Assembly (NCBI GenBank): GCA_937937185.1
Contig: CALDCO010000171.1
Coordinates: forward strand, 1-33,882
DNA length: 33,882 nucleotides
Source: an uncultured Flavobacteriaceae bacterium
GTDB taxonomy: Bacteria > Bacteroidota > Bacteroidia > Flavobacteriales > Flavobacteriaceae
Direction of reading: 5' to 3'
Every line of letters starts with the position of its first letter. The first letter of the stretch is position 1. Of this stretch, positions 8,086 through 15,956 are shown in pieces. Under the pieces are notes generated by a model. The model was not told the origin of the DNA. It did not search any database and saw nothing but the letters and a program-made list of their open reading frames with translations. Position numbers and translations under genes: made by a program.

Positions 8086-10002
8086 ATGAGTAATTATCAC
8101 ATAAAACATTTAGAAGAGTATTATCAAATCTATAGAAAATCGGTTAACGATCCAGAATTGTTTTGGGAAGAAATTGCAGAAGAGCATTTTTTATGGCGAA
8201 AAAAGTGGGATAAGGTATTAAACTGGGATTTTAGAAAACCAGAAATTAAGTGGTTTGAAGGCGCTAAATTAAATATTACCGAGAATTGTTTAGATAGGCA
8301 TCTCATTACGAGAGGAAATAAAACCGCCATTTTGTTTGAACCCAATAACCCAGAAGAAGGCGCATTACACATTACTTATAATGAGTTGTATGAGCGGGTT
8401 TGTAAAATGGCCAACGTACTAAAAAATAAAGGTCTTAAAAAAGGAGATCGTGTGTGTTTGTATTTACCAATGATTCCAGAATTAGTGGTTTCTATGTTAG
8501 CCTGCGCACGTATTGGTGTGGTGCATTCTGTTGTGTTTGCAGGATTTTCATCTTCTGCATTAGCGACCAGAATTAACGATAGTGATTGTAAATTAGTAGT
8601 TACTACTGACGGCTCCTTTAGAGGAAATAAAACCATAGATTTAAAAGGAATTGTAGATGTGGCACTTAAAGAATGCCCTAGTGTAGAAAATGTGCTTGTT
8701 GTAAAGCGAATCGCTTCAAAAATAAAAATGCATTCGGGTCGCGATCATTGGTTGCAACCCTTATTAGATAAGGCTTCTGCAGTATGCGAGGCTGAAATAA
8801 TGGATGCCGAATCGCCCTTGTTTATTTTATATACTTCTGGATCTACGGGGCAACCTAAAGGCATGTTGCATACCACCGCTGGTTATATGATCTATGCAGC
8901 ATATACATTTAAAAATGTATTTCAATATAAAGAAAATGATATTTATTGGTGCTCTGCCGATATTGGATGGATTACAGGGCATAGTTATATCGCCTACGGC
9001 CCCTTAGCAAATGGTGCAACCTCGGTTCTTTTTGAAGGCGTGCCTAGCTATCCAGATTACGGGCGTTTTTGGGAAGTGGTACAAAAACATAAAGTAACTC
9101 AATTTTATACGGCACCTACTGCAATTAGGGCATTAGCTAAAGAAGATTTAAGTTATGTGGAAAAGTACGATTTGTCCTCTCTTAAGGTATTAGGAACAGT
9201 TGGCGAGCCTATTAATGAAGAAGCCTGGCACTGGTACGATGATAATGTAGGGAAAAACAAAGCCCCCATAGTCGATACCTTTTTTCAAACTGAAAACGGC
9301 GGTATCATGTTAACGCCTATTCCTTATGTAACGCCAACAAAGCCCACTTATGCAACTTTGCCTTTTATTGGGATTCAACCTGCTCTAATGGATGAAAATG
9401 GAAATGAACTAAAGGGCAATCAAGTAGAAGGGCGTTTGTGTATTAAATTTCCTTGGCCAAGCATTGCAAGAAGTATTTGGGGCAATCATGAGCGTTATAA
9501 AAACACCTATTTTTCGGCTTTCGATAACAAATATTTTACAGGAGATGGTGCGTTAAGAGATGAAGTGGGTTATTATAGAATCACTGGGCGAGTAGACGAT
9601 GTTATTATTGTTGCTGGTCATAATTTAGGAACCGCTCCCATTGAAGACGCTATAAATGAACATCCTGCTGTGGCAGAAAGTGCTATTGTTGGGTATCCTC
9701 ATGAGATAAAGGGAAATGCCTTGTATGGGTATATTACCTTAAAAAGTGCTGGGGAAGATAGGAATCACGGAAATTTGAGAAAAGAGATTAATCAGCTTAT
9801 CGCAGAACGCATTGGACCAATTGCCAAACTCGAAAAAATACAATTTACCGAAGGCTTGCCAAAAACCAGAAGTGGAAAAATAATGCGACGCATTTTACGA
9901 AAAATAGCACATAATGAAAGTGATAACTTGGGCGATATAAGTACGTTATTAAACCCAGAAGTAGTCGCGCGTATTATTGATAATGCTTTAATAGCTGTTT
10001 GA
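8086..10002 (+). CDS. acs: Acetyl-CoA synthetase (acetate--CoA ligase)
   Basis: A 638-residue cytoplasmic enzyme converting acetate, ATP and CoA to acetyl-CoA through acetyl-AMP. Visible motifs: the P-loop YTSGSTGQPKGM at 249-260, ADIGWITGHSYI, TVGEPINEEAWHWY, ITGRVDDVIIV, and PKTRSGKIMRR at the C-terminus with the lysine (598) that is acetylated in regulated homologues. Length is normal. Two motifs depart from the enterobacterial enzyme: DTFFQTENGG (397-406) stands where DTWWQTETGG is usual, and GHNLGT (511-516) where GHRLGT is usual; this may be lineage-typical. It lies on the strand of the acetate-type symporter operon but is separated from it by the DUF3857 pair. No clear promoter was seen in the 231 bases upstream. 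Confidence 0.95.
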   Translation: MSNYHIKHLEEYYQIYRKSVNDPELFWEEIAEEHFLWRKKWDKVLNWDFRKPEIKWFEGAKLNITENCLDRHLITRGNKTAILFEPNNPEEGALHITYNELYERVCKMANVLKNKGLKKGDRVCLYLPMIPELVVSMLACARIGVVHSVVFAGFSSSALATRINDSDCKLVVTTDGSFRGNKTIDLKGIVDVALKECPSVENVLVVKRIASKIKMHSGRDHWLQPLLDKASAVCEAEIMDAESPLFILYTSGSTGQPKGMLHTTAGYMIYAAYTFKNVFQYKENDIYWCSADIGWITGHSYIAYGPLANGATSVLFEGVPSYPDYGRFWEVVQKHKVTQFYTAPTAIRALAKEDLSYVEKYDLSSLKVLGTVGEPINEEAWHWYDDNVGKNKAPIVDTFFQTENGGIMLTPIPYVTPTKPTYATLPFIGIQPALMDENGNELKGNQVEGRLCIKFPWPSIARSIWGNHERYKNTYFSAFDNKYFTGDGALRDEVGYYRITGRVDDVIIVAGHNLGTAPIEDAINEHPAVAESAIVGYPHEIKGNALYGYITLKSAGEDRNHGNLRKEINQLIAERIGPIAKLEKIQFTEGLPKTRSGKIMRRILRKIAHNESDNLGDISTLLNPEVVARIIDNALIAV

Positions 10003-10058
10003 ATAACGATCTTAACTTTTTATATTTTACCGAAAATGAGTTAACATTAATTACGACA

Positions 10059-10077
10059 ATGTATTTTTGAAATACAT
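10059..10077. terminator. Small hairpin between convergent acs and kynurenine cluster
   Basis: ATGTATTT (10059-10066) and AAATACAT (10070-10077) form a perfect 8-bp stem with a 3-base loop in the 98-base gap between two converging genes. It is AT-rich and lacks a clear T run, so a terminator role is only suggested by position. Confidence 0.3.
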
Positions 10078-10100
10078 AGCGAGAGGCCTACTGAATGCGA

Positions 10101-11916: not shown

Positions 11917-12699
11917 TTAAAGCGATTTTGTTCTTCCGCCATCCACAGGAAGGTTAATCCCATTAATATAGCTAGCAGCATCGCTTGCCAAAAAAGTAAT
12001 TGCTTTTGCGGTTTCTTCTGGTCTAGCAAAACGTTTGGCGGGGACATAGTTTTTCATAAGTTGTGTCATGTCTTCAATAGAAGTATTTTGGCGGTCGGCT
12101 TTTATCTTAATAATTTGATCTAGTCTGGCCGTATCAGTAAAACCAGGCAATACATTGTTTACAGTAATTCCAAATTCCCCTAATTCACCGGCTAATGTTT
12201 TACTCCAGTTTGCAACAGCATTTCTAATCGTGTTACTTACTCCTAAACCAGGTATGGGTTCTTTAACTGAAGTTGAGATGACGTTTATTATACGCCCATA
12301 GCGTTCACTCTTCATAAACGAAAGGGTTTCTTTAACTAAAATCTGGTTGCAAACCACATGCATACTAAAAGCAGTCGTTAACTCTTCAACAGAAGCATTG
12401 TGCAGCAAACTACTTTTAGGACCACCAGTATTATTTATTAAAATGTGAAACCCATTTTGTGTTTTAATATGTTCTGAAACTTTGATTTTTAAAACTTCTG
12501 GGTTAGAAAAATCAGCAACAATGTAATTGTGATTTCTAGTTGAAGGCAATTCACTAACGACTTGTTTTAGCTTGTCTTCATTTCTAGCGATTAAAGTAAC
12601 GTTTGCCCCTTCTTGCGCTAGTGCTATAGCAGTTGCTTTTCCTATACCTTGTGTGCTTCCACAAACTAAAGCATTTTTATTGTTTAAGTTTAAATCCAT
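11917..12699 (-). CDS. SDR-family protein of the kynurenine cluster with altered active site
   Basis: A 260-residue Rossmann protein of the short-chain dehydrogenase/reductase superfamily. The cofactor-binding GSTQGIGK lies at 14-21, the NNTGG core motif at 89-93, and the C-terminal LASDAASYINGINLPVDGG is typical. The catalytic Tyr-x3-Lys is not present: the region reads ISTSVKEPIPGLGVSNTIRNAV (141-162), so Ser155 and Arg159 occupy those positions. This matches the BKR-like SDR subgroup that lacks the classical tetrad. It is embedded between the aminomuconate-semialdehyde dehydrogenase and 3-hydroxyanthranilate dioxygenase genes, so a role in the lower kynurenine pathway is likely, but the reaction is unknown. 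Simple alcohol/ketone oxidoreduction is doubtful. Confidence 0.88.
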   Translation of the reverse strand: MDLNLNNKNALVCGSTQGIGKATAIALAQEGANVTLIARNEDKLKQVVSELPSTRNHNYIVADFSNPEVLKIKVSEHIKTQNGFHILINNTGGPKSSLLHNASVEELTTAFSMHVVCNQILVKETLSFMKSERYGRIINVISTSVKEPIPGLGVSNTIRNAVANWSKTLAGELGEFGITVNNVLPGFTDTARLDQIIKIKADRQNTSIEDMTQLMKNYVPAKRFARPEETAKAITFLASDAASYINGINLPVDGGRTKSL

Positions 12700-14230: not shown

Positions 14231-14470
14231 TTAAACTCTCCCTGTGTATTCAAAATTTTTATACCGTATATATGGATTAACATAATCGTAAGCATATATA
14301 TGCTTATTGGATTTGTCTTTTAAAATTTCATTCAAGAAATTAAGTTTAAACTCATCAGTAATAATTGGTGTTTCAATTTCTTTTACTATTAATTCTTTTT
14401 CTTTTAGTTTTTTACATGAAAAAACTAAAAGAAAAATTAATATAGAAATGTATATTAAAGTCGTTTTCAT
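14231..14470 (-). CDS. Small lipoprotein, possibly truncated
   Basis: A 79-residue protein beginning MKTTLIYISILIFLLVFSCKK: a hydrophobic signal with a lipobox ending at Cys19, followed by a Lys/Glu-rich linker and about 40 residues rich in Tyr, Asn and Asp. I do not recognise a family. The C-terminus stops abruptly at YTGRV, 3 bases before the dehydrogenase start, so it may be the N-terminal part of a longer lipoprotein whose end was lost when this junction formed. The codons for residues 11-26 lie inside a near-perfect long inverted repeat (14396-14436). A REP-like palindrome ends just upstream of the ATG. It may be real, or a leftover reading frame. Confidence 0.55.
   Translation of the reverse strand: MKTTLIYISILIFLLVFSCKKLKEKELIVKEIETPIITDEFKLNFLNEILKDKSNKHIYAYDYVNPYIRYKNFEYTGRV
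14396..14436. repeat. 18-bp perfect inverted repeat inside the small lipoprotein gene
   Basis: Arms at 14396-14413 and 14419-14436 are perfectly complementary over 18 bp, with the 5-base loop ACATG. Pairing continues outward (TTAAT on both sides) with a 2-base bulge. Low-complexity A/T accounts for part of it, but the shared CTTTTAG core makes full chance pairing unlikely. In mRNA it would form a strong hairpin early in the leftward kynurenine transcript. Confidence 0.75.
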
Positions 14471-14477
14471 AAGATAC

Positions 14478-14556
14478 CTCTCGACTGCGCTCGAGGAGAC
14501 ATTTAGTTTTAGTTTATATTATTTAGTTCTCTGTCTGGTCGAGCGGAGTCGAGGCC
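14478..14556. repeat. Pair of inverted REP-like palindromic units
   Basis: Unit 1 (14478-14497) and unit 2 (14537-14556, opposite orientation) share the core CTCGACTnCGCTCGA. Each can fold on itself through CTCGA/TCGAG-type stems, and together they could pair into a larger hairpin. GC-rich palindromes of this kind stand out in this AT-rich genome and are typical of REP-like intergenic repeats. Confidence 0.7.
14490..14517 (+). repeat. 28-bp direct repeat, copy 1
   Basis: Begins GCTCGAGGAGACATTTAG and is identical over 28 bases to 14639-14666. It starts in the right half of REP-like unit 1, so the palindrome tail plus about 18 bases of flank were copied together. Confidence 0.85.
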
Positions 14557-14638
14557 TCATTGTTTCTGTCATAGTTAATCATATACATTTTTACAAAAAA
14601 CCTCTTTACTCACGATTGTCTTGGTAGACAGCCGAAAG

Positions 14639-14666
14639 GCTCGAGGAGACATTTAGTTTTAGTTTA
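14639..14666 (+). repeat. 28-bp direct repeat, copy 2
   Basis: Identical to 14490-14517, 149 bases away. Here the left flank differs: AGCC-GAAA-GGCT (14631-14642) forms a 4-bp stem with a GAAA loop directly before the shared sequence. The two copies bound a 120-base segment holding unit 2 of the REP-like pair. Confidence 0.85.
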
Positions 14667-14924: not shown

Positions 14925-15956
14925 ATGAAATACTGTAAATCGATAACATTACTTTATATTTTGTTTGCCTTTTTAACTTGTAATAGTTTTGGTGAAAAAC
15001 AACAAAATAAAAGTGCAGATGCCCCATATAACATGGCTTGGGTAGAAGGCGCTCAATTCGAAATGGGAGTAAATGAAAATGAAGGACACCCCGGAGAATT
15101 CCCAAAACATAAAGTTGAGGTTAGTGGTTTTTATATTGACAAATATGAAGTGACTAATAAGCAATTTTCAGAATTTGTTGAAGCGACAGGTTACATAACA
15201 ACAGCAGAGAGAAAACCAACGTGGGACGAATTAAAGTCTCAACTGCCTCCTGGAACAGAACGATTTCCAGATTCTATTATGAAGGCTGGCTCTATTGTCT
15301 TTAATAGCACAAAAGTAGACAGCTATAATGATTATACGCAATGGTGGAAATGGGAGTTGGGTGCTAATTGGAAACACCCCAAAGGCGTTAATAGTGGTAT
15401 TGAGTCTTTAATGGATCATCCTGTAGTACATGTTTCTTGGTTTGATGCAATGAGTTATGCTAAATGGGCAGGAAAAGATTTACCAACTGAGGCTGAATGG
15501 GTATTAGCTGCTATGGATAAAAATTTTAAAGCAATATACCCTTGGGGAAATACTCGCCCTAATGATAAGAAACCTCAGGCAAATTATTTTCAAGGAAAAT
15601 TCCCCGAAACTAACTTGAATTCTGATGGATATGCTAATACAGCACCAGTGGGGAGCTTCAAACCTAATTCATATGGCGTTTACGATTTAGGCGGAAATGT
15701 ATGGGAGTGGTGCAAAGATTATTACCACATCGATTATTTTAAGGAATGTAAAGAAAAAGGTCTTGTGAGAGACCCTCAAGGATCAGAAACTTCATACGAT
15801 CCAATGACGCCATATATGAAAAAAAGAATAACAAAAGGGGGCTCATTTCTTTGTAATGATTCTTATTGCGGCGGGTATAAAATAAATATGAGAATGAATA
15901 GCGACCCTTATTCAAGTCAAGATCACACTGGTTTTCGATGTGTAATTAGGAAGTAG
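14925..15956 (+). CDS. Exported formylglycine-generating enzyme family protein
   Basis: A 343-residue protein with a hydrophobic N-terminal export signal (about 5-22; a Cys at 19 could make it a lipoprotein, but the lipobox FLTC is not canonical). The FGE/SUMF1 fold follows: MAWVEGAQFEMG (37-48), FYIDKYEVTNKQF, HPVVHVSWFDAMSYAKWAGKDLPTEAEW, GGNVWEW, and KGGSFLCNDSYCGGYK ending with TGFRC. Cys310 and Cys315 match the two copper-binding active-site cysteines of true formylglycine-generating enzymes, which many family members lack. It could activate exported sulfatases by converting Cys to formylglycine, but no sulfatase gene is in the window, so this is inferred. It stands alone. Confidence 0.88.
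   Translation: MKYCKSITLLYILFAFLTCNSFGEKQQNKSADAPYNMAWVEGAQFEMGVNENEGHPGEFPKHKVEVSGFYIDKYEVTNKQFSEFVEATGYITTAERKPTWDELKSQLPPGTERFPDSIMKAGSIVFNSTKVDSYNDYTQWWKWELGANWKHPKGVNSGIESLMDHPVVHVSWFDAMSYAKWAGKDLPTEAEWVLAAMDKNFKAIYPWGNTRPNDKKPQANYFQGKFPETNLNSDGYANTAPVGSFKPNSYGVYDLGGNVWEWCKDYYHIDYFKECKEKGLVRDPQGSETSYDPMTPYMKKRITKGGSFLCNDSYCGGYKINMRMNSDPYSSQDHTGFRCVIRK

Follow-up and report, generated by a model that had tools for sequence, protein, structure and literature searches.

The window, a stretch of 33,882 nucleotides from an uncultured Flavobacteriaceae bacterium analysed as a whole, contains a gene for a divergent SDR located among three genes of the lower kynurenine pathway, those for 3-HAO, ACMSD and AMSDH (Table 1). 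The assignment of the AMSDH follows from its seven top solved matches, all of which are AMS dehydrogenases; its top NCBIfam model is TIGR03216, at a score not over the cut-off of that model. The 13 top of 19 solved matches of the ACMSD are likewise ACMSDs. An ORF search of the window found no RidA, in agreement with the earlier note on this DNA. The cluster is adjoined by a plus-strand gene (14925-15956) for a 343 aa FGE-sulfatase (formylglycine-generating-enzyme) domain protein with an apparent signal peptide.

Table 1. Genes and features of the kynurenine cluster in the window
Feature	Position	Strand	Basis
Divergent SDR, 260 aa; candidate 2-aminomuconate / 4-oxalocrotonate double-bond reductase	11917-12699	minus	function inferred from context
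AMSDH (2-aminomuconate 6-semialdehyde dehydrogenase), ALDH family, 479 aa	12788-14227	minus	solved matches
3-HAO (3-hydroxyanthranilate 3,4-dioxygenase), 177 aa	11296-11829	minus	TIGR03037 and PRK13264 over cut-off
ACMSD (ACMS decarboxylase), amidohydrolase family, 361 aa	10101-11186	minus	solved matches
Repeated DNA upstream of AMSDH, probable cluster break point	14465-14666		blastn

Active site and fold of the SDR

The SDR combines a conserved dinucleotide-binding motif with an altered active site. Its ORF is intact and matches Pfam adh_short_C2 with 140 bits, and the predicted structure (mean pLDDT 92.3) superimposes on many SDRs in Foldseek with TM values of about 0.9. G14, G18 and G20 of the TGxxxGxG-type dinucleotide motif are identical in 61/61 orthologues. 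The YxxxK site reads S155-N-T-I-R159, bearing out the earlier description of a non-canonical SDR in which Ser155 and Arg159 replace Tyr and Lys. His114 occupies the Asn position and Ser142 is retained, so that H114, S142, S155 and R159 stand where the catalytic Asn-Ser-Tyr-Lys tetrad would be; the protein is called divergent because Ser alone of the classical tetrad remains. Ser142, Ser155 and Arg159 are invariant in all 192 distinct SDR sequences, a set that counts in the window and excludes one match with a stop codon (L107), and the residues H114, S142, T143, S155, N156, T157 and R159 are jointly present in 174 of the 192. The invariance of Ser142, Ser155 and Arg159 argues that the altered site is under selection rather than subject to decay or drift. 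The top NCBIfam model, PRK08339, scores 180.6 bits, below its curated cut-off of 339 bits. A 540 aa open frame at the SDR of one genome (G539) was considered as a gene fusion and judged spurious by eye; its extra N-terminal part overlaps the divergent upstream region.

Two structural relatives share the loss of the catalytic Tyr and Lys. AerF from Microcystis aeruginosa (PDB 6jh7/6jha/6jhb; Z 36.2, rmsd 1.5 over 259 residues, 33% identity) likewise has Ser in place of the Tyr and lacks the Lys, but possesses S..N instead of S..R and Gly instead of Ser142, and belongs to aeruginosin biosynthesis. The title of the paper on AerF describes it as reducing an alkenal double bond. BacG/YwfH from Bacillus subtilis (PDB 3u49/3u4c/3u4d; Z 36.4, rmsd 1.3 over 251 residues, 30% identity) lacks both Tyr and Lys but shows N..N at the site and functions in bacilysin biosynthesis; its PDB entry title describes an NADPH-dependent reductase, and the enzyme acts on a substrate of the dihydro-hydroxyphenylpyruvate type. 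The fold Z-scores of BacG (36.4), AerF (36.2) and L-sorbose reductase (35.9) are tied, with plain sugar and acyl reductases level with them, and double-bond and carbonyl reductases cannot be told apart by fold. Three further solved proteins, 5va8 (Burkholderia phymatum), 1o5i (TM1169) and 2z1n (APE0912), share the S-N-x-x-R of the SDR at 32-34% identity by structure alignment, indicating that the altered site represents an existing SDR variant. The entries listed give them general names only, 1o5i being a 3-oxoacyl-ACP reductase according to its depositors. We know of no link between these three proteins and any pathway.

Gene neighbourhood, co-occurrence and the deaminase

The SDR is a conserved member of kynurenine clusters in Bacteroidota. 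In the full cluster of L062, with the order TDO-SDR-AMSDH-RidA-3-HAO-ACMSD-KFase-KYNU-KMO, the SDR is the sole pathway-type gene without a step. Seven SDR loci of the window's family (L034-L040) share the order KMO-RidA-AMSDH-SDR-3-HAO-ACMSD, with kynureninase in view in six. A set of 80 named SDR loci, made up of the best SDR-profile matches and so weighted towards near relatives, shows AMSDH in 57, ACMSD in 55, KMO in 52, KYNU in 50, 3-HAO in 49 and RidA in 47. Within 4 kb of the SDR in 156 loci longer than 5 kb we find AMSDH (97), ACMSD (96), 3-HAO (95), RidA (75), KMO (52) and KYNU (40). A protein of about 213 aa that by eye resembles an O-methyltransferase is encoded near the SDR in 41 of the 156 loci, for example downstream of ACMSD in L205 (12639-13277). 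Of the earlier interpretation, one part is supported: the SDR is a non-canonical, conserved pathway member without an assigned step.

3-HAO is present in 120/196 genomes of the order, and 80 loci fetched from these genomes plus the window gave 81 3-HAO loci. SDR, AMSDH and RidA occur together in 32 of them, SDR and AMSDH in 8 (window included) and SDR alone in 2; all three genes are absent from 37. AMSDH without SDR is seen in only two loci (L058, L113), both cut by contig ends. For genome-wide tests we used 73 genomes: the 40 top-scoring ones for the SDR, plus 33 that have 3-HAO and were taken regardless of SDR. The 3-HAO locus was fetched for all of the latter but G121, G130 and G145; it shows no SDR in 29 genomes and an SDR in G082. 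AMSDH is present in 20 of the 33, all from family f7, and absent from 13, all from the window's family. An SDR orthologue and RidA are each found in 19/20 AMSDH-positive genomes (G145 being the exception for both) and in 0/13 AMSDH-negative ones, four of which encode merely an SDR paralogue of 43-44% identity. Since this contrast lies between two families, the co-occurrence of SDR and AMSDH counts for little more than one evolutionary event. The pairing in genomes with scattered genes is telling, however: in family f7, the SDR lies less than 600 bp from AMSDH on one strand in 16/19 genomes, although the other cluster genes are dispersed. Absence of the SDR from relatives that have other members of the cluster, which the earlier note had named as a refuting observation, is rare, amounting to 1/52 AMSDH-positive genomes, 32 of the 52 having been picked for the SDR.

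At the level of the phylum, an SDR match at E 1e-45 is present in 106/395 genomes. Among these matches is a clade of its own at 42-47% identity, set apart in the tree with support of 96/91. SDRs with S155 and R159 also occur in a separate clade outside the pathway. No close SDR orthologue was found on plasmids, the best identity among the matches listed, from a total of 86 records, being 39.7%; a 3-HAO is carried by 77 plasmid records.

A deaminase gene is present in the window's genome outside the window. The earlier note had started from a cluster without a deaminase and considered the SDR as a possible substitute. The genome contains three RidA-family genes, all on other contigs. One of them, on contig C21 (6986-7387, minus strand; PF01042, 93.9 bits), has 2-aminomuconate deaminase (6izh) as its best solved match at 169 bits, with the next match at 62 bits, and shares about 85% identity with its counterpart in relative L034, where RidA and the SDR stand in one joined cluster. 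It is located directly behind KMO and kynureninase, forming a kynureninase-KMO-RidA block. The dedicated deaminase gene elsewhere in the genome that the earlier note had named as counting against its proposal is therefore this RidA. The anticorrelation of SDR and RidA that it had proposed as a check is not observed either: the two genes are found together, in 32/42 SDR-bearing 3-HAO loci, and do not replace each other. On these two grounds, the SDR was rejected as a deaminase stand-in.

The separation of the two parts of the cluster coincides with repeated DNA. Window positions 14465-14666 give six blastn matches of 67-93% identity to positions 5944-6875 of contig C21 (L144), on the far side of RidA, and because both sides share repeated DNA, the split is ascribed to a rearrangement at repeats or to a wrong assembly join. 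The repeats on C21 surround a GIY-YIG ORF of 106 aa. In six relatives (L039, L040, L199, L209, L213, L221), similar ORFs interrupt the cluster at varied gene junctions, as if a GIY-YIG element inserted between operon genes. The kynureninase gene of the C21 block (8820-10088, minus strand) contains a single in-frame TAA near codon 146 and is either a pseudogene or affected by a sequence error.

The downstream branch and SDRs outside the full pathway

SDR genomes lack the decarboxylase of the known downstream branch. In Pseudomonadota, the lower branch goes under nba/amn-type names and comprises a decarboxylase, hydratase, aldolase and acetaldehyde dehydrogenase. The enzymes up to RidA are shared with the Bacteroidota set, as in a Caballeronia plasmid (p1), where RidA-3-HAO-ACMSD precede genes for a hydratase, a decarboxylase-like protein and an acetaldehyde dehydrogenase. 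Whereas the Pseudomonadota branch is decarboxylative, 2-oxo-3-hexenedioate decarboxylase (TIGR03218) exceeds the cut-off in 0/40 Bacteroidota SDR genomes, with one weak match of 56 bits, and gave no match at E 1e-3 in the window's genome. As a control, the Caballeronia decarboxylase scores 223 bits, under the cut-off of 350.55 and far above any of the 40 SDR genomes. The Caballeronia cluster has an SDR of its own, which is unrelated (23% identity) and carries Leu at the Tyr position with Lys kept. A Mycetohabitans cluster (AMSDH-RidA-3-HAO-ACMSD) has neither SDR nor decarboxylase within the 16.5 kb seen. Among seven plasmid loci opened, four from Alphaproteobacteria (L316, L318, L320, L321) have an annotated 3-HAO beside dihydrodipicolinate-synthase-family and aspartate dehydrogenase genes and no kynurenine cluster; three of the four also carry transporters, and the annotated 3-HAO is perhaps a different dioxygenase. 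On an unannotated Cupriavidus plasmid, KYNU lies beside 3-HAO.

A glutaryl-CoA-dehydrogenase-like gene is present in 73/73 genomes with or without the SDR. An onward route from glutaryl-CoA therefore exists, but the gene fails as a discriminator of SDR genomes. In the window's genome, the gene is represented by a fragment of 133 residues at a terminus of contig C237; its top matches are glutaryl-CoA dehydrogenases. Three class-level relatives, out of 20 loci, have the glutaryl-CoA dehydrogenase gene about 2-8 kb from the SDR (L163 at 6655, L171 at 15803, L164 at 15414). This proximity is weak evidence because housekeeping genes and a gene that resembles one for orotidine-phosphate decarboxylase lie between or beside the two.

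The SDR is also retained in genomes without its pathway partners. Neither AMSDH nor RidA is present in eight of the 40 SDR genomes, and 3-HAO is missing as well from six of these (G304, G308, G365, G415, G419, G460); two other SDR genomes, G224 and G329, are likewise without 3-HAO. Kynureninase is present in all eight 3-HAO-less genomes. Mariniflexile gromovii and two Algibacter (L185, L192, L201) possess an intact KYNU-KMO-SDR-3-HAO-ACMSD cluster, with AMSDH and RidA absent from the genome at the thresholds used, which brings the genomes that keep the SDR without AMSDH and RidA to 11. In the tree, the SDRs from 3-HAO-less genomes do not form one group. G365 and G415 pair together (100/99), while four members of family f18 (G224, G308, G419, G460; 98/85) are placed beside the full-pathway genomes G211 and G298 (99/92) and apart from G365/G415; G202, G304 and G329 are placed by weaker forks or few rows. 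The active site is intact in the 3-HAO-less genomes, and this scattered distribution combined with an intact site is hard to square with a narrow enzyme for the product of AMSDH or RidA. The SDR is thus sometimes kept without an evident source of the proposed substrate, pointing either to another source or to a second or broader role. KYNU directly adjoins the SDR in four loci (L163, L164, L165, L167), and a 108 aa cupin does so in two Chitinophagaceae-type loci (L168, 10028-10351; L249, 8957-9280). The latter arrangement resembles the pairs of cupin isomerase and SDR in bacilysin and aeruginosin synthesis.

Proposed function and alternatives

The SDR is a strong candidate for an unassigned reductive step. 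3-HAO, ACMSD and AMSDH would together convert 3-hydroxyanthranilate to 2-aminomuconate, and RidA-type enzymes in general hydrolyse enamines and imines. RidA could act first, yielding 4-oxalocrotonate (2-oxo-3-hexenedioate), an enone that the SDR would then reduce, or the SDR could reduce 2-aminomuconate itself, with RidA then hydrolysing the resulting enamine or imine. Either order would give 2-oxoadipate by the same net reaction, and 2-oxoadipate would be burned via a 2-oxoacid dehydrogenase, glutaryl-CoA and glutaryl-CoA dehydrogenase. If 4-oxalocrotonate is made where the known next enzyme is absent, the gap is most simply filled by the only cluster gene without an assigned step, the candidate reductase. 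Our leading reading, held at a little under an even chance, is accordingly that the SDR may be an NAD(P)H-dependent C=C reductase of the Bacteroidota lower kynurenine pathway that forms 2-oxoadipate from 2-aminomuconate or 4-oxalocrotonate. Of the roles suggested in the earlier note, the reduction of a later product is the one that the evidence favours.

This reading builds on gene content, conservation, co-occurrence, neighbourhood, the altered site, the fold and the lack of a decarboxylase branch; from these we infer which substrate and cofactor the SDR uses, its chemistry, its order relative to RidA and the flow to glutaryl-CoA. Against it stand the facts that AerF and BacG do not have the S..R pair and that the solved proteins which do have it carry general names. 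Reductase activity of this kind occurs in liver; to our knowledge, no gene has been assigned to the animal oxalocrotonate reductase, and pathway databases hold none. Among the titles and abstract openings of the open-access literature searched, none names such a gene. For fungi, the reduction of 2-oxo-3-hexenedioate to 2-oxoadipate is mentioned as a fate that may occur (PMC7842363), and the legend of a figure showing the human pathway lists 'oxalocrotonate reductase' (PMC12899273); neither passage gives a gene. The animal glutarate route given there (oxalocrotonate reductase, 2-oxoadipate dehydrogenase, glutaryl-CoA dehydrogenase) has, compared by scheme alone, the same net reaction as proposed for the SDR.

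The retention of the SDR without an evident source of the proposed substrate is what holds the 2-oxoadipate-forming reductase below an even chance and gives some weight to a rather unlikely alternative, a reductase with a wider range of reactive substrates (unsaturated 2-oxo acids or enals) that serves damage control or a second pathway and for which the kynurenine cluster is one substrate source. Such an enzyme would explain the 11 SDR genomes that have no AMSDH and RidA, including the six with no 3-HAO either, as well as the differing SDR neighbours there (the cupin in L168 and L249, KYNU in L163, L164, L165 and L167) and the S155/R159 SDRs of the separate clade outside the pathway. It leaves unexplained, however, why the SDR is absent from 13/13 3-HAO genomes of the window's family without AMSDH and why it stays beside AMSDH in scattered clusters. 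The same 13 genomes, which possess KYNU and 3-HAO and no SDR orthologue, indicate that neither kynurenine nor ACMS alone calls for the SDR. They weigh against an action on AMS, ACMS or Kyn-CKA, including Kyn-CKA reduction as the main role, as does the fact that the closest gene link of the SDR is to AMSDH and not to KYNU. We consider this rival improbable, although Mariniflexile and Algibacter keep the SDR with 3-HAO and ACMSD and without AMSDH, the eight SDR genomes without 3-HAO all encode KYNU, and KYNU directly adjoins the SDR in four loci.

Readings without redox chemistry fare worse. That the classical catalytic Tyr and Lys are gone would suit a catalytically dead SDR serving as a scaffold or in substrate channelling between AMSDH and RidA, but this is very unlikely given that the replacing residues and the dinucleotide motif are invariant and that the SDR persists in genomes without AMSDH and RidA. 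More improbable still is a non-redox deaminase or isomerase replacing RidA, for which the exchange of the tetrad Tyr, Lys and Asn for invariant Ser, Arg and His could be cited: the window's genome encodes a RidA of the 2-aminomuconate deaminase type, RidA occurs with the SDR, and the G14-G18-G20 dinucleotide-binding motif is invariant.

For the clade as a whole, defined by H114, S142-T143 and S155-N-T-x-R159, we tentatively propose, again with slightly less than even confidence, that it may supply the missing 2-aminomuconate/4-oxalocrotonate reductase gene of an animal-type reductive route via 2-oxoadipate and glutaryl-CoA and that, where the pathway has been lost, it may clear related reactive enones. 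In many Bacteroidota, the tryptophan-breakdown set carries an unusual candidate reductase, which may make 2-oxoadipate, where other bacteria have different late enzymes. If the proposal is true, Bacteroidota with a complete kynurenine set would finish the pathway without the decarboxylase branch, and double-bond reduction by a Tyr-less SDR would join the kynurenine and lysine routes. An SDR site that keeps only one of its four classical residues would also gain a catalytic role. A gene would be available for the 'oxalocrotonate reductase' that the human pathway legend names (PMC12899273) and for the reduction left unassigned in the fungal work (PMC7842363). Clusters with a nameless SDR would become annotatable, and the SDR would provide a query sequence for the animal enzyme.
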